NCBI RefSeq assembly: GCF_002741075.1
Contig: NZ_CP016634.1
Location: forward strand, 4,308,001-4,372,000
Direction: 5' to 3'
DNA from: Pseudomonas putida
GTDB lineage: Bacteria; Pseudomonadota; Gammaproteobacteria; Pseudomonadales; Pseudomonadaceae
DNA: 64,000 nucleotides
Below, one piece after another: positions 52,686 to 60,776 of this stretch. Numbering within the stretch: the stretch's first letter is position 1; every line of letters starts with the position of its first letter. The notes under the pieces were generated by a model that had not been told where the DNA came from, did no database searches, and saw only the letters and a list, made by a program, of their open reading frames with translations. The position numbers and the translations under genes are program-made.

Positions 52686-53000
52686 ATGACCGAGCAATAC
52701 GCGTTCATTCTCAAAGCCAAGACCCGTCCGGAAAAAGCCGAGGCCTTCGAGCGATTGTTCCGCGCCTATGTCGAGCCGAGCCGCCAGGAACCGGGCTGCA
52801 TCGAGTACCACATGCTGCGTGACCAACAGGACCCCAGCCTGTTCGTGTTCTATGAAGTCTGGGCCAGCAAGGCCGACCTGGACGTGCACTCTGCCCTGCC
52901 GCACATGCGCGAGTTCTTCGAACAGCGCATGGAGTACCTGGAGCGCGACTTCGACATCCAGCTGATCGAGATGCTCAGCCCCTCCTCGGCTAGCCGTTGA
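52686..53000 (+). CDS. ygiN: Antibiotic-biosynthesis-monooxygenase domain protein (YgiN-like)
   Basis: This 104-residue dimeric ferredoxin-like fold protein of the ABM family begins MTEQYAFILKAKTRPEKAEAF, with the conserved core EPGCIEYHMLRDQQDPSLFVFYEVWASKADLDVH. In E. coli YgiN is a quinol monooxygenase encoded beside mdaB and proposed to form a quinone redox cycle with it. Here the two genes are divergent rather than tandem. The ATG at 52686 is preferred to one four codons earlier. Confidence 0.85.
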   Translation: MTEQYAFILKAKTRPEKAEAFERLFRAYVEPSRQEPGCIEYHMLRDQQDPSLFVFYEVWASKADLDVHSALPHMREFFEQRMEYLERDFDIQLIEMLSPSSASR

Positions 53001-53006
53001 GCAGCA

Positions 53007-53041
53007 GGTGCCCGCCCAGCAGCGCCAGCAGGGCGGGCACC
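53007..53041 (+). terminator. Terminator after ygiN
   Basis: An 11-base perfect stem (GGTGCCCGCCC/GGGCGGGCACC) with a 13-base loop starts 7 bases after the stop. A T run is lacking. Confidence 0.65.
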
Positions 53042-53148
53042 AACATCAATCAAGACTGCCCCTACAGCCATCCCGGCACCGTCCTGACGCCCCCACCCCG
53101 GCATCCACGTTAAAACCTCACAAGGGTTCGTTTCTACGGGGTACTTTC

Positions 53149-53544
53149 TTGAGTCGACACGACAATCGCCACGGGTCCCATGACCATCTCGAGCACCTGC
53201 TCCAGGCGTTCGCACAGCGCTACATCCGCAAGACATTCACCTCGCGCTTCATGCATGAGGCAGCAAAAAGGCCCCAGCAGTTGCACACCCGGGTTTGCCA
53301 TACCCCTGAGCAACTGTTCGAAGACAGGTTCAAAGGCCCCCCGGCGAGCCTGCCGGGCACAGGCGAATTCGTCGCATTGGAGAACGCCGGCTTCTGGATC
53401 GGCACCTGGGAGCGCTGCGAGGTGAATCTGCTGGTTGCCCAAGGCGGCCTGGTCATCGCGCAGGGTGGCGCGTGGTTCTGGGCGCGCAGCGAACCGACCA
53501 GGCATCTGCCAGGCGGCGAGTATCACGCCATGGCGCAGCGTTGA
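53149..53544 (+). CDS. Hypothetical protein
   Basis: This 131-residue frame has high GC3 and normal amino-acid composition, so it looks coding. It starts at TTG (MSRHDNRHGSHDHLEHLL) or possibly at an upstream or downstream in-frame codon; no good Shine-Dalgarno decides. The protein has RYIRKTFTSRFMHEAAKRP in the middle and a Trp-rich end (FWIGTWERCEVNLLVAQGG, WFWARSEP). No domain is recognised. It precedes the lipid operon by 84 bases and may or may not belong to it. Confidence 0.5.
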   Translation: MSRHDNRHGSHDHLEHLLQAFAQRYIRKTFTSRFMHEAAKRPQQLHTRVCHTPEQLFEDRFKGPPASLPGTGEFVALENAGFWIGTWERCEVNLLVAQGGLVIAQGGAWFWARSEPTRHLPGGEYHAMAQR

Positions 53545-53628
53545 GCGGCAAAGCAACGTCCCCCTTGCCGCCTGCCAGGCTCATTCTCCACAATCCAGCT
53601 CATGTCGCGCCATGAAAGGGAGTTCAAC

Positions 53629-54234
53629 GTGCCATCGATCTACCAACTCAAACCCCGTTTCCAGGCCCTATTGCGCCCTGGCGTGAAGCGCCTGTACGAA
53701 CGGGGCGTCACCGCCAATCAAGTCACCGTCGCCGCCGCGCTGGTATCGGTGCTGCTGGGCCTGCTGCTGGCCTGGCAACCCTCTATGACCGGGTTGTTCA
53801 TCCTGGTGCCGGTGTGGATGCTGCTGCGCATGGCGCTCAATGCGGTCGACGGCATGCTGGCCCGGGAATTCGGCCAGCAATCGAAGCTTGGGGCCTACCT
53901 CAACGAGCTGTGCGACGTGGTCGCCGATGCCGCGCTGTACCTGCCCTTCGCCCTCCTGCCCGGCGTCTCGCCGGCGCTGGTGGTGCTGGTGGTCGTGAGC
54001 GCGCTCGTCAGTGAGTACGCCGGGGTGATGGGGCCGCTGGCGGGAGCCTCGCGGCGGTACGACGGGCCGATGGGCAAGAGCGACCGAGCCTTCGCCTTCG
54101 GCGTGCTGGGCACTGGGGTCGCCTTCGGGGTGCTGAGCGCAGCGTGGATCGACGGCCTGCTGCTGGTCATCCTCGCACTCTCGCTCTATACCCTCTACAA
54201 CCGGGTTCGCCAGGGCCTGGCCGAAACCCGCTGA
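53629..54234 (+). CDS. CDP-alcohol phosphatidyltransferase, YnbA-like, with altered metal motif
   Basis: This is a membrane enzyme of the CDP-alcohol phosphotransferase family, which joins a CDP-activated lipid to an alcohol such as glycerol phosphate. The 201 residues span about six helices. The family motif D-x2-D-G-x2-A-R-x8-G-x3-D-x3-D appears as N71-x2-D74-G-x2-A-R-x8-G88-x3-N92-x3-D96: Asn replaces the first and third aspartates. I recall E. coli YnbA sharing this. GTG at 53629 has GGGAG six bases upstream. It is the first gene of a six-gene lipid operon. Confidence 0.85.
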   Translation: MPSIYQLKPRFQALLRPGVKRLYERGVTANQVTVAAALVSVLLGLLLAWQPSMTGLFILVPVWMLLRMALNAVDGMLAREFGQQSKLGAYLNELCDVVADAALYLPFALLPGVSPALVVLVVVSALVSEYAGVMGPLAGASRRYDGPMGKSDRAFAFGVLGTGVAFGVLSAAWIDGLLLVILALSLYTLYNRVRQGLAETR

Positions 54235-54264
54235 CTCCTTCGCTGCCGGACAAGGACCTACGCC

Positions 54265-56019
54265 ATGCGCCAAGCGCAATCGCTGCATTTCTCCACCCAT
54301 GACGGTGTCGAGTTGCATTACCGCTACTGGCCCGCCACCCGCAACGAATACCAGCCACGCCGGGCCGTTGTGATGTTCCACCGAGGACACGAGCACGGCG
54401 GGCGCATGGCCCACCTGCCCAACGAACTGGACATGCCTGGCTACGATTTCTTTGCCTGGGACGCCCGAGGCCATGGCCAGTCGCCCGGTGCACGCGGCGA
54501 CAGTCCAGGCTTCGCCACCAGCGTGCGGGACGTGCAGACCTTCATCGAGCATATCCGCGACAGCCACGGCATCGCCGAGGCGGACATGGTGGTGCTGGCC
54601 CAGAGCGTGGGTGCCGTACTGGTGGCGACCTGGGCCCATGACTACGCGCCGAAGGTGCGTTGCCTGGTACTGGCCTCGCCGGCCTTCAAGGTCAAGCTCT
54701 ACGTGCCGTTCGCTCGCCCGGGCCTGAAGCTGCTTAAAGCGTTGCGTGGCAACTTCTTCGTCAACAGCTACGTCAAGCCACGCTTGCTGACCCACGACCC
54801 GGAACGGGTCATGTCCTACCTGGCCGATCCACTGATCAGCCGACCGATCTCGGTGACCATGTTGCTGGGCCTGTATGAAGCGGCCGACCGGGTGGTGGCC
54901 GACGCCCAGGCGATCCAACTGCCGACCCAACTGCTGGTGTCCGGCGCGGACCTTGTGGTCGAACGCCCACCCCAGGAGCGCTTCTTCGAGCGCCTGGGCA
55001 GTGCACGCAAGGAGATGCACGTTCTCCCGGGCTTTTTCCACGACACCCTCGGCGAGCGCGACCGGCCCCATGCCCTGGCACGGATCCAGCGCTTCGTCGC
55101 CCACTGCTTCGACGCGCCCGCAGCCCTGCCTTCGCTGCTCGACGCCGACAAGAGCGGCGCCAGTTGCGCTGAAGCCGAAAGCCTGGCTGCGCCCCTGCCG
55201 CGCAACTCGCCCCGCGAACTCTACTGGCGAGCCACCCGAGCCGGGCTGCGCCTGGGCAAGGGTTTCTCGGAAGGGGTGAAGCTGGGGTTCGACACCGGCT
55301 TCGACTCCGGCAGCACCCTGGACTACGTGTACCGCAACCAGCCCACCGGCAAAGGCAAGCTGGGCGAGCTGATCGACCAGAACTACCTCAACGCCATCGG
55401 CTGGCGCGGCATCCGCCAACGCAAGCTGCATGTGGAGGAACTGCTGCGTGAGGCCATCCGACGCCTGCGTGAGCTGCAACGCCCGGTGCACATCGTCGAC
55501 ATCGCGGCAGGCCATGGCCGCTACATTCTCGAAGCCCTGCAGGAGCAGGAGCAGGTGCCCGACTCGATCCTGCTACGCGACTACAGCGAGCTGAACGTCC
55601 AGCAAGGCAACGCACTGATCGGTGAGAAAGGCCTGAGCGAGGTCGCCCGCTTCGTCCAGGGCGATGCCTTCGACCGTCAGAGCCTGGCCAGCCTCGACCC
55701 CCACCCGACCCTGGCGGTGGTGTCGGGCCTCTACGAGCTGTTCGCCAGCAATGACCTGGTGGGCAACTCCCTGGCAGGCCTGGCCGATGCTGTCCAGCCT
55801 GGCGGCTACCTGGTGTACACCGGCCAACCCTGGCACCCGCAACTGGAGATGATCGCCCGCGCCCTGACCAGCCATCGCGATGGCCAGGCCTGGGTTATGC
55901 GGCGGCGCAGCCAAGCGGAGATGGACCAGTTGGTAGAGGCGGCAGGCTTTCGCAAGATCACCCAGCGCATCGATGAGTGGGGCATCTTCAGTGTCAGCCT
56001 GGCGCAACGGGTGGACTGA
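54265..56019 (+). CDS. Alpha/beta-hydrolase fused to a methyltransferase-like domain (YnbC-like)
   Basis: This 584-residue two-domain protein has an S33-type alpha/beta hydrolase at about residues 1-280 with a possible triad Ser114 (LAQSVGAV; Ala in place of the first Gly of GxSxG), Asp229 (SGADLVV) and His259 (GFFHD). The C-terminal domain (about 390-584) has a SAM-binding motif VDIAAGHGRY (411-420). The fusion resembles E. coli YnbC. Hydrolysis or acyl transfer on a lipid plus methylation is the simplest guess. It starts 30 bases after the YnbA-like gene. Confidence 0.82.
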   Translation: MRQAQSLHFSTHDGVELHYRYWPATRNEYQPRRAVVMFHRGHEHGGRMAHLPNELDMPGYDFFAWDARGHGQSPGARGDSPGFATSVRDVQTFIEHIRDSHGIAEADMVVLAQSVGAVLVATWAHDYAPKVRCLVLASPAFKVKLYVPFARPGLKLLKALRGNFFVNSYVKPRLLTHDPERVMSYLADPLISRPISVTMLLGLYEAADRVVADAQAIQLPTQLLVSGADLVVERPPQERFFERLGSARKEMHVLPGFFHDTLGERDRPHALARIQRFVAHCFDAPAALPSLLDADKSGASCAEAESLAAPLPRNSPRELYWRATRAGLRLGKGFSEGVKLGFDTGFDSGSTLDYVYRNQPTGKGKLGELIDQNYLNAIGWRGIRQRKLHVEELLREAIRRLRELQRPVHIVDIAAGHGRYILEALQEQEQVPDSILLRDYSELNVQQGNALIGEKGLSEVARFVQGDAFDRQSLASLDPHPTLAVVSGLYELFASNDLVGNSLAGLADAVQPGGYLVYTGQPWHPQLEMIARALTSHRDGQAWVMRRRSQAEMDQLVEAAGFRKITQRIDEWGIFSVSLAQRVD

Positions 56020-57377
56020 TGGCGCGCGAACCCGGGTTGATCCGCCGAGGCGTGCTCTGGCTGTTGCTGCTGGCGCCGTTCTTCTTTCTCAGCTACGGCC
56101 TGGTCAACAGCCACACCGCCTCCCGCGACGACGTTGGCAGCCTGGTCTTCGGCTGGGAGGAGCAGACGCCTCTTTGGCCGTGGACGATCGTGCCCTACTG
56201 GTCCATTGATCTGCTCTACGGACTGTCCTTCCTGCTGCCAACCAGCCGCCGGGAAATGGACCGTCATGCCCTGGCGCTGCTGAGCGCGCAGGTCATCAGT
56301 GTCAGTTGCTTCTTGCTCTGGCCGTTGCGTTTCACCTTCGAGCGCCCGGCGCTGGACGGTGTGTTCGGCTGGTTGTTCGATGTGCTGATGGGCTTCGACA
56401 AACCCTTCAACCAGGCCCCCTCGCTGCATATTGCCCTGCTCGTGATCATCTGGACGATGTTCGCCCGGCATATCCATCGCCAGCCTTGGCGTTGGCTTAT
56501 GCACGGGTGGATGGCGCTGATCGGGGTGTCGGTGATGACCACCTGGCAACATCACTTCATCGATCTGCCCACTGGGGCGCTGGCGGGGCTGGTCTGCGTC
56601 TGGCTGTGGCCACGGGAGGGCGATGTGCCGCTGCAGGCGGCACGCCTGACCCGGGATACTCGGCGTTGGCGGCTTGCGCTGTACTACGGGATCGGGGCGT
56701 TGTTGTGCGCGGCGTTGGCGCTGCACTTGGCGGGTGCCTGGCTGTGGCTGTTGTGGCCGGCCGTTTCGCTGCTGATGGTGGCGCTGAACTATGCCGTGTT
56801 CGGTGCCGACGGTTTCCAGAAAGGCGCAGATGGGCGGTTGTCCAACGCCGCCAGCTGGTTGCTGGCGCCTTACCTGTTGGGCGCCTGGCTCAACTCGCGA
56901 ATATGGACGCGCAAACGGCCACAAGCCGATGAGGTGTGCGATGGGGTGTATCTGGGGCGCATTCCCGAGTTCGGCGCGGCCTCGTCGTTCAATGCCGTGG
57001 TTGACCTGACGGCTGAACTGCCGTGCTTTGCCTGTGCCGACGCATTCGCGGGTAAACCCGCGAATGGGCCGAGCCAGACAATGCAAATGCCTGCACATTA
57101 CACCTGCCTGCCAACCCTGGACCTGATCGTCCCGGATACCAACCTGCTCAAACAGGCCGCCGAGGCCATCGAGCGTCTGCGCCAGCAAGGCCCGGTGCTG
57201 GTCTGCTGCGCCCTGGGCTATTCCCGCAGCGCCAGTGCAGTGGCCGCCTGGTTGGTACACAGCGGCCGTTGCACCAGCGTCACCCAGGCCGAAGCGCTGA
57301 TCCGCAAGGCCCGCCCCAGTATCGTGTTGCATCCAGGCCATCGCATAGTGCTCCAACAATTGGAGGCCCAGCCATGA
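56019..57377 (+). CDS. PAP2 phosphatase fused to a dual-specificity phosphatase (YnbD-like)
   Basis: This 452-residue membrane protein has an N-terminal PAP2-type domain with PSLH (134-137) and HHFIDLPTG (His178/179, Asp182), among about eight helices. The C-terminal cytoplasmic dual-specificity phosphatase domain has the CX5R signature C397-ALGYS-R403; the residue before the nucleophile is Cys396 where His is usual. Both domains can remove phosphate from lipids such as PGP. Residues 342-349 between the domains are encoded by a REP palindrome. The ATG overlaps the previous stop (TGATG). Confidence 0.82.
   Translation: MAREPGLIRRGVLWLLLLAPFFFLSYGLVNSHTASRDDVGSLVFGWEEQTPLWPWTIVPYWSIDLLYGLSFLLPTSRREMDRHALALLSAQVISVSCFLLWPLRFTFERPALDGVFGWLFDVLMGFDKPFNQAPSLHIALLVIIWTMFARHIHRQPWRWLMHGWMALIGVSVMTTWQHHFIDLPTGALAGLVCVWLWPREGDVPLQAARLTRDTRRWRLALYYGIGALLCAALALHLAGAWLWLLWPAVSLLMVALNYAVFGADGFQKGADGRLSNAASWLLAPYLLGAWLNSRIWTRKRPQADEVCDGVYLGRIPEFGAASSFNAVVDLTAELPCFACADAFAGKPANGPSQTMQMPAHYTCLPTLDLIVPDTNLLKQAAEAIERLRQQGPVLVCCALGYSRSASAVAAWLVHSGRCTSVTQAEALIRKARPSIVLHPGHRIVLQQLEAQP
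57044..57065. repeat. REP core inside the YnbD-like coding sequence
   Basis: The arms ATTCGCGGGT and ACCCGCGAAT surround AA, a perfect P. putida REP core translated in frame as AFAGKPAN. It lies between the phosphatase domains. Confidence 0.9.
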
Positions 57378-57802
57378 ACCTGCATCTGGTGGCCAGCCTG
57401 CTGGGGCGCGGCCGACAGCTCGAACGTCTGTCAGATGGCATCACGCTGCTGGCCCTGGCCTACGGTCTGGCACCTCTGGTGACCCACCTGCCCCCGTTGG
57501 CCAGTGCGGTCTGCGCGGTGTTGCTGGGGCTGGGGCTGCTGCACAAGTACTGGGCGATCCGCGTGGCCCTGGACGCCGGGCTGTTCGCCCGGCTCGCCAC
57601 CAGCACCGACCTCGCAATCGATACCCAGGCCCTGGATCGCGCCCTGTTCGACTTGAACCTCAAGCCCCACGCCCACGACGCACGTGACTGGCCCACCCGC
57701 AGCCAAGGCGCACTGAGCCTGCTGCGACGCCAAGCGCTGTGCCTTGCCGCGCAAGTCGTGCTGGCCCTGACTACCCTGCTGATACTCTCTTTCACCGGAT
57801 AA
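57374..57802 (+). CDS. Small membrane protein of the lipid operon
   Basis: This 142-residue protein overlaps the previous gene by four bases (ATGA), so it is translationally coupled. Hydrophobic segments lie at about residues 22-60 (GITLLALAYGLAPLV and SAVCAVLLGLGLLH) and at the C-terminus (QVVLALTTLLILSF). The middle is soluble (ALDRALFDLNLKPHAHDARDWP). I do not recognise a family. It may be a subunit or scaffold for the neighbouring lipid enzymes. Confidence 0.8.
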   Translation: MNLHLVASLLGRGRQLERLSDGITLLALAYGLAPLVTHLPPLASAVCAVLLGLGLLHKYWAIRVALDAGLFARLATSTDLAIDTQALDRALFDLNLKPHAHDARDWPTRSQGALSLLRRQALCLAAQVVLALTTLLILSFTG

Positions 57803-57812
57803 GCATCGCGCC

Positions 57813-58436
57813 ATGTTCGCTGCCCTGACCGCTTTTGCCATCACCTCTGCCGCACGCCTGATCACCGGTGCCCGCGCCCTCTGGCTCGGTTGCACACCGC
57901 ACCCCAGGCAGCGCCTTTATTTTGCCAACCACAGCAGCCACGGCGACTTCGTGCTGCTCTGGGCCTCGCTACCCGAACCCTTGCGCCGCCACACCCGCCC
58001 CGTGGCAGGGGCCGACTACTGGGCCAAGCCTGGCATTCGGGACTTTCTGATCCGCAGGGTGTTCGACGCCGTGCTGATCGACCGCCAGCGCGGCGAGGGC
58101 CAAGACAATCCCCTGCAGCCGGTGCTCGACGCCCTGGGCCAGGGCGACTCGCTGATCTTCTTCCCCGAAGGCACCCGCAACCTCAGCGATGAACCACTGC
58201 TGCCGTTCAAGAGTGGCCTGTTCCACCTGGCCTCGGCCCACCCGGATATCGAGCTGGTGCCGGTGTGGATCGCCAACCTCAACCGCGTCATGCCTAAAGG
58301 CCGCGCGCTGCCTTTGCCACTGCTGTGCACCCTGAGCTTCGGCGACCCCCTGCACCTGCTGCCCGACGAGCGCAAGCAGGCCTTTCTCGAACGGGCCAGC
58401 CAGGCCCTGCTGAACCTGGCCCCGAAGGATGCCTGA
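57813..58436 (+). CDS. PlsC-like acyltransferase
   Basis: This 207-residue acyltransferase has the HX4D motif NHSSHGD (His40, Asp45) and the phosphate-binding block FPEGTR (117-122). It is close to 1-acyl-glycerol-3-phosphate acyltransferases but shorter and with no long N-terminal membrane domain. It would add an acyl chain to a glycerophosphate or similar acceptor. It lies 10 bases after the small membrane gene and 1 base before the CdsA-like gene, inside one operon. Confidence 0.88.
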   Translation: MFAALTAFAITSAARLITGARALWLGCTPHPRQRLYFANHSSHGDFVLLWASLPEPLRRHTRPVAGADYWAKPGIRDFLIRRVFDAVLIDRQRGEGQDNPLQPVLDALGQGDSLIFFPEGTRNLSDEPLLPFKSGLFHLASAHPDIELVPVWIANLNRVMPKGRALPLPLLCTLSFGDPLHLLPDERKQAFLERASQALLNLAPKDA

Positions 58437-58437
58437 G

Positions 58438-59370
58438 ATGGACGACAACACCCTATCCCTGTTCGCCGGTATCGGCGCCCTGCTTGTGCTCGCCAGCGTG
58501 ATCGGCCGCCTGCTCAAATGGCGCGCCGGCTCCGCGCCGCATGCGGTGATCGACAACCTCAACGCACGCATCAACGCCTGGTGGGCGATGGTGCTGGTGA
58601 TCGGCATCGCATTCGTGTTCGGCAAGTACGGGGTGATCGTATTGTTCTACTTCGTCTCGTTCTATGCCCTGCGCGAGTTCATGACCCTCACGCCCACCCG
58701 ACGCAGCGATTACCCGGCATTGGTGGCGGCCTTCTACGTGGCGTTGCCGGTGCAGTACCTGTTGATCGCCATGGACTGGTACGGCTTGTTCAGCATTTTC
58801 ATCCCGGTGTACCTGTTCCTGTTCCTGCCGATCCTGGCAAGTTTCGGTGGCGATACCACCCGCTTTCTCGAGCGCGCCTCCAAGGTGCAATGGGGGTTGA
58901 TGATCGCGGTGTACTGCCTGTCCTCGGTGCCGGCGCTGATGACCTTGGACATCCCCGGCTACGAAGGCCGCAACCTGCTGCTGATCGCCTGGCTGATCCT
59001 GGTGGTGCAGATCAGCGATGTGTTGCAGTACGTGTGCGGCAAGCTGTTCGGCAAGCGTAAGGTGGCGCCCAACCTGTCACCCTCCAAGACCGTCGAAGGG
59101 CTGGCCGGCGGCATTGTCCTGGCCACACTGGTGGGTGCCTCGCTGTGCTGGATCACCCCCTTCAGCTTCTGGCAGGCAGCGCTGATGGCGCTGATGGTCA
59201 ATGCCATGGGGTTCTTTGGTGGGCTGGTGATGTCGGCGATCAAGCGCGACCGCGGGGTGAAGGATTGGGGGCATATGATCGAAGGACACGGCGGCATGCT
59301 CGACCGCATGGACTCGGTGTGCTTCGCAGCGCCGGTGTTCTTCCACTTCGTGCGGTATTGGTGGGCGTAG
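58438..59370 (+). CDS. CDP-diglyceride synthase-like protein (CdsA/YnbB-like)
   Basis: This 310-residue membrane enzyme would activate phosphatidic acid with CTP. About eight helices are predicted. The full CDS signature is present at residues 266-292 (SAIKRDRGVKDWGHM, then GHGGMLDRMDS), so the catalytic residues look intact. It is the last gene of the lipid operon and is probably a second CdsA beside the housekeeping copy, as YnbB is in E. coli. The ATG follows the previous stop by one base. Confidence 0.9.
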   Translation: MDDNTLSLFAGIGALLVLASVIGRLLKWRAGSAPHAVIDNLNARINAWWAMVLVIGIAFVFGKYGVIVLFYFVSFYALREFMTLTPTRRSDYPALVAAFYVALPVQYLLIAMDWYGLFSIFIPVYLFLFLPILASFGGDTTRFLERASKVQWGLMIAVYCLSSVPALMTLDIPGYEGRNLLLIAWLILVVQISDVLQYVCGKLFGKRKVAPNLSPSKTVEGLAGGIVLATLVGASLCWITPFSFWQAALMALMVNAMGFFGGLVMSAIKRDRGVKDWGHMIEGHGGMLDRMDSVCFAAPVFFHFVRYWWA

Positions 59371-59491
59371 GGCCATACCCCCAGGGGGTATCCAACAAGG
59401 CTGGTTCGACGGCCTATCGCAGGCTTCGTCTGCTACCCGCGTGGTGAGAGCTGACGAACCCTGCGATGGGCCGCAGCGTGGCTCCATATCG

Positions 59492-59767
59492 TCATTTGAG
59501 GTAAGAGCGCAACAACGAGGCGACCTTGTCGGCCTCCTCCTGGCGTTGTTCGGCGCTCAGGTCATCGGCCACCAGATGCTCACGGATATGCCCTTCCATC
59601 ACTTCGGCCATCAACCCGTTCACCGCACCACGCACAGCGGCGATCTGCTGCAGGATCGCCAGGCAGTCCTTGTCCTGCTCCAGGGCGCTCTCCAGGGCTG
59701 CGGCCTGGCCCTTGATCTTGCGCACGCGGGTCAGCAGTTGCTTCTTGCTCTTGATGGTATGTGCCAT
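59492..59767 (-). CDS. RcnR/DmeR-type Ni/Co-sensing repressor
   Basis: This 91-residue four-helix repressor of the CsoR/RcnR/FrmR family has metal ligands His3, Cys35, His60 and His64, exactly the HCHH set of E. coli RcnR. FrmR, the formaldehyde sensor, has Glu64 instead. The core LQQIAAVRGAVNGLMAEVMEGHIREH is family-typical. The start at MAHTIKSKKQ places His3 correctly. It is divergent from a CDF exporter, as in the dmeR-dmeF pair of Rhizobium, with an operator-like repeat between them. Confidence 0.88.
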   Translation of the reverse strand: MAHTIKSKKQLLTRVRKIKGQAAALESALEQDKDCLAILQQIAAVRGAVNGLMAEVMEGHIREHLVADDLSAEQRQEEADKVASLLRSYLK

Positions 59768-59789
59768 ACAGTTCCGCACCACTCTAGGT

Positions 59790-59806
59790 ATACTGGGGTA
59801 TAGTAT
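59790..59806. promoter_or_regulatory. Operator between the RcnR-type repressor and dmeF
   Basis: ATACT-GGGGTAT-AGTAT is a 5-7-5 inverted repeat with a G tract. It resembles RcnR/DmeR/FrmR operators that flank a G/C run with A/T-rich inverted arms. It lies 23-39 bases before the repressor start and 32-48 before dmeF. Confidence 0.65.
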
Positions 59807-59837
59807 ATTTCACCTATCTACCGGAGCATGATAAACC

Positions 59838-60776
59838 ATGGCGGCGCCAATCTCAGACAAGTGGCTGCACAGCCATCAGTTCCATACCAGCAACCTCGGC
59901 GCCGAGCGCAAGACACGCCTGGCCGTCTGGCTCACGGCAGTGATGATGGTGGCGGAGATCGCCGGCGGCTGGTACTTCAACTCCATGGCGCTGTTGGCCG
60001 ACGGTTGGCATATGAGCTCCCACGCCCTAGCCCTTGGGCTGTCGCTGCTGGCCTATGCTGCCGCACGACGCTTCGCCCGGGACCGGCGCTTCGCGTTCGG
60101 CACTTGGAAGATCGAGATCCTCGGCGGCTACTCCAGTGCCCTGCTCCTGTTGGGCGTGGCCGGGCTCATGGCCTTCCAGTCCATAGAGCGGCTGCTAGCT
60201 CCGGGGCCGATCCACTATGACCAGGCCATTACCCTCGCCGTCCTGGGCCTTGGCGTGAACCTCGTTTGTGCCTGGCTGCTGCGCGACGATCACCACCACG
60301 ATCATCACCATGACCATCATCATGATCATGACCATCACCACCACCACGACCTCAACCTGCGCTCGGCCTACCTGCACGTGATGGCCGACGCCGCGACCTC
60401 GGTCCTGGCGATCATCGCACTGCTGGCCGGCAAGTTCTGGGGCGCCGCCTGGCTCGACCCGGTAATGGGTCTGCTGGGAGCGGTGCTGGTGGCGGTGTGG
60501 GCCAAAGGCCTGCTGCGAGACACTGGGCGGGTGCTGCTGGATGCCGAGATGGACGCACCTGTCGTCGAGGAGATTCACCGAGTCGTGGCCCAACTGCCGG
60601 TACCCGCCACCCTTACCGACCTACATGTGTGGCGCGTCGGCAAGGACCAGTACGCCTGTATCCTGAGCCTGGCAGCGGCAGGCACCCTGAGCGCCGATAC
60701 CGTGCGCCATGCACTGGCCATCCATGAGGAGTTGGCGCACATCACGGTCGAGGTCAACGCGATGTCCATCGCCTGA
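59838..60776 (+). CDS. dmeF: Cation diffusion facilitator, Co/Ni exporter (DmeF-like)
   Basis: This 312-residue proton-coupled metal exporter has six TM helices. The metal site is formed by Asp55/His58 (ADGWHMSSH) in TM2 and His180/Asp184 (HVMAD) in TM5. The cytoplasmic loop at 151-171 is a dense run of His and Asp, typical of DmeF/ZitB-type proteins. The C-terminal cytoplasmic domain is present (VEEIHRVVAQLP). The linked RcnR-type repressor with an HCHH site suggests Co and Ni rather than Zn. Confidence 0.9.
   Translation: MAAPISDKWLHSHQFHTSNLGAERKTRLAVWLTAVMMVAEIAGGWYFNSMALLADGWHMSSHALALGLSLLAYAAARRFARDRRFAFGTWKIEILGGYSSALLLLGVAGLMAFQSIERLLAPGPIHYDQAITLAVLGLGVNLVCAWLLRDDHHHDHHHDHHHDHDHHHHHDLNLRSAYLHVMADAATSVLAIIALLAGKFWGAAWLDPVMGLLGAVLVAVWAKGLLRDTGRVLLDAEMDAPVVEEIHRVVAQLPVPATLTDLHVWRVGKDQYACILSLAAAGTLSADTVRHALAIHEELAHITVEVNAMSIA

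Follow-up and report, generated by a model that had tools for sequence, protein, structure and literature searches.

Can a CDP-alcohol phosphotransferase work when asparagine stands in place of 2 of its 4 signature aspartates, and what might be made by the operon in which it sits? The question is raised by 6 genes at positions 53629..59370 of a stretch of Pseudomonas putida DNA (64,000 nucleotides of contig NZ_CP016634.1, referred to as a whole as the window), which we label A (YnbA-like), C (YnbC-like), D (YnbD-like), S (small membrane protein), P (PlsC-like), and B (YnbB-like). Gene A is a variant, not a canonical, member of the CDP-alcohol phosphotransferase superfamily, and A-P-B is the core unit of the operon, with C, D, and S as nested extras. 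The initial annotation had proposed an expanded form of the Escherichia coli ynb cluster devoted to a separate phospholipid pathway, and it mentions neither this core nor the active-site changes in A. We, too, are inclined to see in these genes a pathway with a lipid product.

The 6 open reading frames lie on the + strand in the order A-C-D-S-P-B and are packed as first annotated, with junctions of 30, -1, -4, 10, and 1 bases:

53629..54234, + strand: gene A, YnbA-like CDP-alcohol phosphotransferase, 201 aa from GTG (alternative ATG at 53602)
53827..53916, + strand: altered active-site stretch of gene A, with R67, N71 (D1 position), D74 (D2), N92 (D3 position), E93, and D96 (D4)
54265..56019, + strand: gene C, YnbC-like alpha/beta hydrolase (monoacylglycerol-lipase-like) fused to Methyltransf_20 (PF12146 and PF12147)
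56019..57377, + strand: gene D, YnbD-like membrane PAP2_3-type phosphatase fused to a dual-specificity phosphatase domain (DSPc match)
57374..57802, + strand: gene S, small membrane protein of 142 aa, predicted three-helix bundle
57813..58436, + strand: gene P, PlsC-like acyltransferase (PF01553) with HX4D and FPEGTR motifs
58438..59370, + strand: gene B, YnbB-like CDP-diacylglycerol synthase (PF01148), ATG start (alternative ATG at 58429)

Pfam agreed with the family assignments for A (PF01066, 31.5 bits against a cut-off of 22), C (Hydrolase_4, 235.6 bits; Methyltransf_20, 518.3 bits), P (PF01553, 65.7 bits), B (CTP_transf_1, PF01148, 240.7 bits), and the DSPc domain of D (43.5 bits), while PAP2_3 in D remained below threshold and S had no match in Pfam or NCBIfam.

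The active site of gene A

The 4 signature aspartates of CDP-alcohol phosphotransferases (D1 to D4) are described in PMC4634129 as absolutely conserved, and in MtPgsA1 they are reported to hold 2 Mg2+ ions, with D1, D2, and D3 binding Mg-1 and D3 and D4 binding Mg-2 (PMC6506517). Measured against the canonical signature D1xxD2G1xxAR...G2xxxD3xxxD4, gene A retains 6 of the 8 residues and fails the full pattern, with N71 at D1 and N92 at D3. We compared it with 107 mapped loci, consisting of E. coli K-12, 26 loci retrieved with C as bait, and 80 named loci retrieved with A as bait (the best 80 of 581 matches); each bait gene necessarily occurs throughout the set that it retrieved, and several of the 107 loci end at a contig edge. 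Both positions were Asn in all 108 YnbA sequences (window plus 107 loci). Two further residues accompanied the Asn pair. An Arg 4 residues ahead of D1 was identified in 107/107 YnbA loci, in 21/21 loci of a second subfamily described below (type II), and in 0/69 canonical relatives, and the residue directly after D3 was Glu in 107/107 YnbA loci and Glu or Asp in 21/21 type II loci, with an acid at this position in 0/69 canonical relatives. Locus L133, where AQ replaces AR, fell outside the initial motif pattern and is counted in the 107/107 after reading by eye.

The canonical relatives derive from a control of 71 out of 117 PF01066 matches in 40 Pseudomonadota genomes, a set not picked to cover phosphatidylinositol phosphate (PIP) synthases. 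All 4 Asp were present in 69 of the 71, including control L186, which lay outside the motif pattern and was assigned by reading; the other 2 are YnbA-type proteins scoring above 250 bits with the YnbA profile, for which the highest score among the remaining controls was 35.2 bits. Ten further YnbA loci, from genomes with A but without C, carried the Asn pair in 9 cases, and the tenth (L222, from genome G287) had Ala at D1 and Asn at D3. With 178.9 bits, the L222 protein diverges furthest among the YnbA-like proteins; it has AV for AR, and its gene has no P or B in the surrounding 16 kb.

Gene A belongs to the superfamily by its fold and PF01066 match and to the YnbA family by whole-length similarity and the same altered motif as E. 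coli YnbA. Its predicted model (predicted local distance difference test score, pLDDT, 94.5) has the CDP-alcohol phosphotransferase fold, with PIP synthases as the closest solved folds. Arg195 of MtPgsA1 aligns with R192 of gene A; the pairing of YnbA R153 with MtPgsA1 Arg155 is uncertain, being supported by 5d91 with the MtPgsA1 alignments off by one, and was not used. As the Arg before D1 and the acid after D3 are coupled to the 2 Asn, the site appears re-tooled rather than decayed. In such a site, the carboxylate would be shifted by 1 residue, and the Arg, one helical turn from D1, could help to bind the pyrophosphate of CDP-diacylglycerol (CDP-DAG).

The main rival to this interpretation is that gene A is an inactive binding partner, a pseudoenzyme whose role is to bind CDP-DAG or to control B and P, the makers of a local pool of phosphatidic acid and CDP-DAG. 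Replacing signature Asp residues of MjPSS by Asn or Ser is reported to lower or abolish activity (PMC8633023), so gene A could be inactive; the D4 to Asn change in MtPIPS is reported to nearly abolish activity (PMC4634129), and the divergent G287 copy has lost further signature residues. However, gene A still has D2 and D4, the position of the catalytic base, within a pocket that is strongly conserved in its entirety, and the joint presence of the Arg and the acid with the 2 Asn in 2 subfamilies is a better fit to re-tooling. We consider the pseudoenzyme unlikely, though a serious contender.

Separation from the housekeeping pathway

The window genome is 5.85 Mb in size, and the nearest named homologues of A, among the matches listed, come from Pseudomonas guariconensis and P. 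putida. Besides A, it encodes 2 PF01066 proteins, PgsA-like and PssA-like with all 4 Asp, and besides B, 1 PF01148 protein, CdsA-like and located in a pyrH-frr-uppS-cdsA-dxr-rseP neighborhood, all 3 named by recognition rather than by family search. Nine PF01553 acyltransferases, P included, were identified. Because PgsA-, PssA-, and CdsA-like proteins are encoded separately, the operon is a parallel addition and not the housekeeping set, which bears out the separation proposed in the initial annotation.

It could still be a redundant housekeeping copy in which A is an ordinary backup synthase for phosphatidylglycerophosphate (PGP), phosphatidylinositol phosphate, or phosphatidylserine; the predicted fold and some database entries, which name gene A a CDP-DAG-glycerol-3-phosphate 3-phosphatidyltransferase, are consistent with this. 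Its NCBIfam scores, however, are far below the cut-offs for PgsA (TIGR00560, 23.8 vs 109.1 bits), PssA (21.5 vs 107 bits), PIP synthase (NF045883, 48.7 vs 170 bits), and archaetidylinositol phosphate synthase (75.2 vs 180 bits), and its signature is altered, while the PgsA- and PssA-like proteins of the same genome are intact. Nor was an inositol-1-phosphate synthase (PF01658) found in the window genome, and we regard a backup role as very improbable. Inositol as the acceptor was rejected on the same PF01658 search, which was positive in 6 of 14 named control genomes, with uptake of inositol possible.

Gene content and order across loci

All 6 families were identified at 75 of 106 loci, E. coli K-12 excluded (22/26 with C as bait and 53/80 with A as bait). 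The order A-C-D-S-P-B was the commonest form among the 107 loci (61), and the label of an expanded ynb-like cluster is thus better reversed, the 4-gene E. coli set being smaller and reordered and having neither P nor S. Gene A was divergent from C-D-S-P-B at 12 loci, A-P-B stood alone at 10, and the remaining 24 fell into smaller classes. Presence was nested, with S only alongside D (79/79) and D only alongside C (83/83), and P and B were nearly always paired (both at 90 loci, P only at 1, and B only at 2). A search for PF12147, representing gene C, in 20 genomes whose locus missed at least 1 of the 6 families gave no match in 13, including A-P-B genomes of Haemophilus, Avibacterium, and Lonepinella. 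Neighbor clustering over the 107 loci (25 largest clusters) linked no further gene across clades. Correlations between distance matrices (r 0.85-0.94, 76 sequences), uncorrected for species relatedness, were not used as evidence. The named hosts found with A as bait were mainly gamma-, beta-, and alphaproteobacteria, together with single contigs labeled Campylobacter showae and Acidobacteria.

At the Pasteurellaceae loci L066, L074, L076, and L078, A-P-B lies downstream of a lpxD-fabZ-lpxA-lpxB-rnhB run (named by recognition), directly after it in L066 and with intervening genes, including a transporter-like one, in the other 3; this placement suggests a link to envelope lipid synthesis. Gene C is split between frames at L075 and L088 (Cardiobacterium hominis and Paracoccus methylarcula), through either sequencing error or decay, and a 717-residue gene sits between C and D at L058 (9608-11758).

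Genome-wide co-occurrence and a second subfamily

We surveyed 398 Pseudomonadota genomes from 212 genera with profiles for gene A (A4, E <=1e-30) and gene B (A5, E <=1e-50). Gene A was identified in 37 genomes (21 genera), gene B in 69 (46 genera), and the Methyltransf_20 domain of C in 27 (12 genera), all 27 of which also had A; within the genus of the window, 81 of 149 genomes had Methyltransf_20, 1 of them as a weak match of 19.7 bits. Gene B was present in 36 of the 37 genomes with A vs 33 of the 361 without it (Fisher p 9e-31, uncorrected for phylogeny, with counts for this and the following test read off genome listings). Co-occurrence beyond close relatives had been named beforehand as a test of the proposed pathway, and the spread of A over 21 genera with B in nearly every case agrees with it. 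Among the 10 genomes with A and without C, A, B, and P were adjacent in 8, A and B in 1, and A was alone in 1 (G287). Genome G379 carries 2 YnbB-type genes (C14 and C16), 1 inside a six-gene cluster and 1 elsewhere.

Of the 33 genomes with B and without YnbA, 20 were opened. P adjoined B in all 20, and in 14 a second, distant CDP-alcohol phosphotransferase, type II, stood beside the P-B pair. It has the R-N-D-N-acid-D pattern of YnbA, with Val, Ile, Leu, or Met replacing the Arg of AR and an Arg following D4, and Asn occupied D1 and D3 in 21/21 type II sequences. Pfam misses or barely detects the subfamily, with 0, 26.9, and 22.2 bits for the 3 tested against a cut-off of 22. A profile built from the 14 sequences identified type II in 21 of the 398 genomes (17/212 genera), and B was found in all 21, within 3.4-3.7 kb around the type II gene in 19, with 1 weak match of 84 bits. 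Both subfamilies occurred together in a single genome (G043). Taken together, YnbA or type II was identified in 57 of the 398 genomes, about 1 in 7, and B was present in 56 of these 57 vs 13 of the 341 others (Fisher p 2e-54, uncorrected for phylogeny).

The 6 remaining P-B loci had no CDP-alcohol phosphotransferase nearby; 1 of them comes from G397, a genome that encodes type II at another site. A third partner enzyme for P-B may exist. Type II genes were located at L224-L235, L242, L243, and L244-L264, and at L236-L241 no A-like gene could be detected in the 13 kb around the P-B pair. Among the best 120 of 7494 matches, named type II hosts include Rhizobium, Sinorhizobium, Bosea, and Methylobacterium, and the source records of several of the proteins call them phosphatidylglycerophosphate synthase, so such annotations may mislead.

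Partner genes

Across the loci, C, P, and B retain their catalytic motifs with few exceptions. Residues S114, D229, and H259 of C are conserved in at least 98% of sequences. P contains both the HX4D and FPEGTR motifs and scores below TIGR00530 (50.4 vs 102.95 bits), and B carries the CdsA signature SAIKR...HGGxxDRxDS, conserved across loci, at a score far below the CdsA equivalog cut-off (87.7 vs 385 bits). Gene D falls short of the Pfam PAP2_3 cut-off (21.6 vs 27 bits) and of the C1 motif of PAP2 phosphatases and has the C2 and C3 motifs: C2 (S-x-H) reads PS[LM]H in 84/84 aligned sequences, and H178, H179, and D182 of C3 (H-x3-D) are conserved in at least 98%. The Cx5R loop of its second domain is also conserved. 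Gene S is predicted to fold as a three-helix bundle (pLDDT 92.2) with conserved D67, D88, and R109, and its neighbors among solved structures were generic helical bundles only in the lists obtained, from which no function was inferred. Since S occurs only where D occurs and the 2 genes overlap by 4 bases in the window, S probably works with D.

The monoacylglycerol-lipase-like domain of C and the 2 phosphatase-type domains of D would also suit an operon for remodeling or breakdown, in which C and D remove acyl groups and phosphate from lipids and the products are reused by P, B, and A. The minimal conserved unit P-B-A, which occurs without C and D, consists instead of synthetic-type enzymes, and we think a remodeling or breakdown role improbable.

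A proposed pathway and its weighing

We propose that the operon is a dedicated phospholipid assembly line parallel to the housekeeping pathway, with A transferring a phosphatidyl group to a polar acceptor X, and give this proposal about an even chance of being right. It most likely comprises a core of acyltransferase, CDP-DAG synthase, and unusual CDP-alcohol phosphotransferase with optional tailoring by C, D, and S. P would acylate lysophosphatidic acid to phosphatidic acid, B would convert this to CDP-DAG, and A would move the phosphatidyl group onto X, probably a phosphorylated alcohol. D, probably partnered by S in the membrane, could dephosphorylate either the product or one of the intermediates, and C could trim or methylate the lipid. 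The YnbA branch would be active, with the Arg assuming part of the role of one Mg2+. Gene content, conservation, co-occurrence, the motif change, and the predicted fold were computed, and from these we infer all reactions, the order of the steps, the acceptor, and the product. More tentatively, and with somewhat less than an even chance, YnbA and type II may together form an unrecognized catalytic class, in which an Arg and a displaced carboxylate replace 2 Asp, and which, with its own P and B, makes an undescribed membrane phospholipid.

Several points, besides the MjPSS substitutions described above, count against the assembly line. These genes are not known to yield any lipid product. The Arg94 of MtPgsA1 that is needed for inositol phosphate aligns with V97 and is Val in YnbA. 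The C1 motif of gene D is variable (33 variants in 84 sequences), and E. coli YnbD is reported to have failed to complement PGP phosphatase or undecaprenyl pyrophosphate (C55-PP) phosphatase mutants (PMC7413402); the former makes the phosphatase role of D the least secure of the assignments, and the 2 together leave the phosphatase step weakly supported. A-P-B loci exist without D and C, and in 13 of the 398 genomes B occurs without either CDP-alcohol phosphotransferase subfamily, so B can stand without a detected partner. Finally, the viable, genome-reduced E. coli strain DGF-298 lists ynbA-D as deleted (PMC10652928), and any product is thus dispensable there.

Work on the E. coli proteins brings in a further alternative. 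The statement in the initial annotation that ynbABCD has no known function was too strong, as YnbB and YnbD have been studied (PMC6362211, PMC7018664, PMC7413402). YnbB is reported to synthesize CDP-DAG in vitro, and its overproduction to support synthesis of the glycolipid MPIase (membrane protein integrase; PMC6362211, PMC7018664; review PMC10881803); it is also reported to be unable to replace CdsA in E. coli (PMC6362211, data not shown there). The unit might accordingly make a pyrophosphate-linked glycolipid precursor, such as the N-acetylglucosamine-pyrophosphate-diacylglycerol (GlcNAc-PP-DAG) of MPIase, with A or B joining CDP-DAG to a sugar-1-phosphate whose phosphate acts as the nucleophile. 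According to PMC6362211, MPIase is raised by YnbB overproduction, and GlcNAc-PP-DAG is formed from phosphatidic acid, CTP, and GlcNAc-1-phosphate in membranes or with partially purified CdsA8, and ynbB emerged from a transposon screen in E. coli whose only enterobacterial common antigen (ECA) was the phosphoglyceride-linked form (ECA-PG; PMC8609368). The same report, however, describes ynbB as unneeded for ECA-PG synthesis, and MPIase is reported to be essential, whereas ynbB is not, DGF-298 living without all 4 ynb genes. WecF (PF07429) was found in 1 of 15 cluster genomes, that of Providencia, by which a route through the ECA genes was rejected; this is weak evidence about MPIase itself, which is not thereby excluded, since a title cited in PMC8609368 has MPIase independent of the ECA genes. 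A glycolipid precursor thus seems a long shot.

Beyond these studies, ynbA or ynbB appears in stress-expression or screening results (PMC12871917, PMC12811501, PMC13031359, PMC8609368). Our literature search, which left most subscription papers outside its range, returned, among the matches listed, no paper that deals with either the six-gene cluster or the Asn variant. The synthesis of membrane lipids is generally considered well mapped. A branch that is widespread, departs from the Asp signature in a coupled way, and has its own acyltransferase and CDP-DAG synthase would point to altered catalysis and an overlooked lipid. As the branch extends to E. coli K-12, in a gene set still without explanation, the proposal is testable in a laboratory strain.

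Flanking sequence

Scans of 52900-59850 returned no sigma-70-like promoter site and 9 terminator-like sites vs 3.3 expected, none of them informatively located. A perfect palindrome, ATACCCCC-A-GGGGGTAT, was read by eye at 59375-59391, after the end of gene B, and is followed by a small repressor-like gene on the minus strand (59492-59782) and a His-rich cation-efflux-like gene (59838-60776). The palindrome is possibly a metal-repressor operator.

Comparison with known systems

E. coli ynbABCD holds 4 of the 6 genes, as first annotated, with orthologues of A (47% identity to YnbA over 197 residues), B (39%), C (56%), and D (42%) and the same altered YnbA signature. It differs from the window in having neither P nor S and in its order, A-B-C-D, which is unique among the 107 loci. 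Compared with MtPgsA1, RsPIPS, and AF2299, gene A has Asn at D1 and D3, Arg before D1, and an acid after D3, and, unlike the PIP synthases, it has Val at the Arg94 position and is encoded in a genome in which we found no inositol-1-phosphate synthase. Gene B shares the C-terminal cytidylyltransferase signature of the housekeeping CdsA but is linked to A and P and lies far below the CdsA equivalog cut-off. Similarly, gene P resembles PlsC and other 1-acylglycerol-3-phosphate acyltransferases in its HX4D and FPEGTR motifs but differs in its sub-cut-off TIGR00530 score and is 1 of 9 PF01553 proteins in its genome. A further parallel to YnbA is type II, which shares the R-N-D-N-acid-D pattern and adjoins P-B in 14/20 loci, while differing in AV, AI, AL, or AM for AR, in the Arg after D4, and in its poor detection by Pfam (3 tested).

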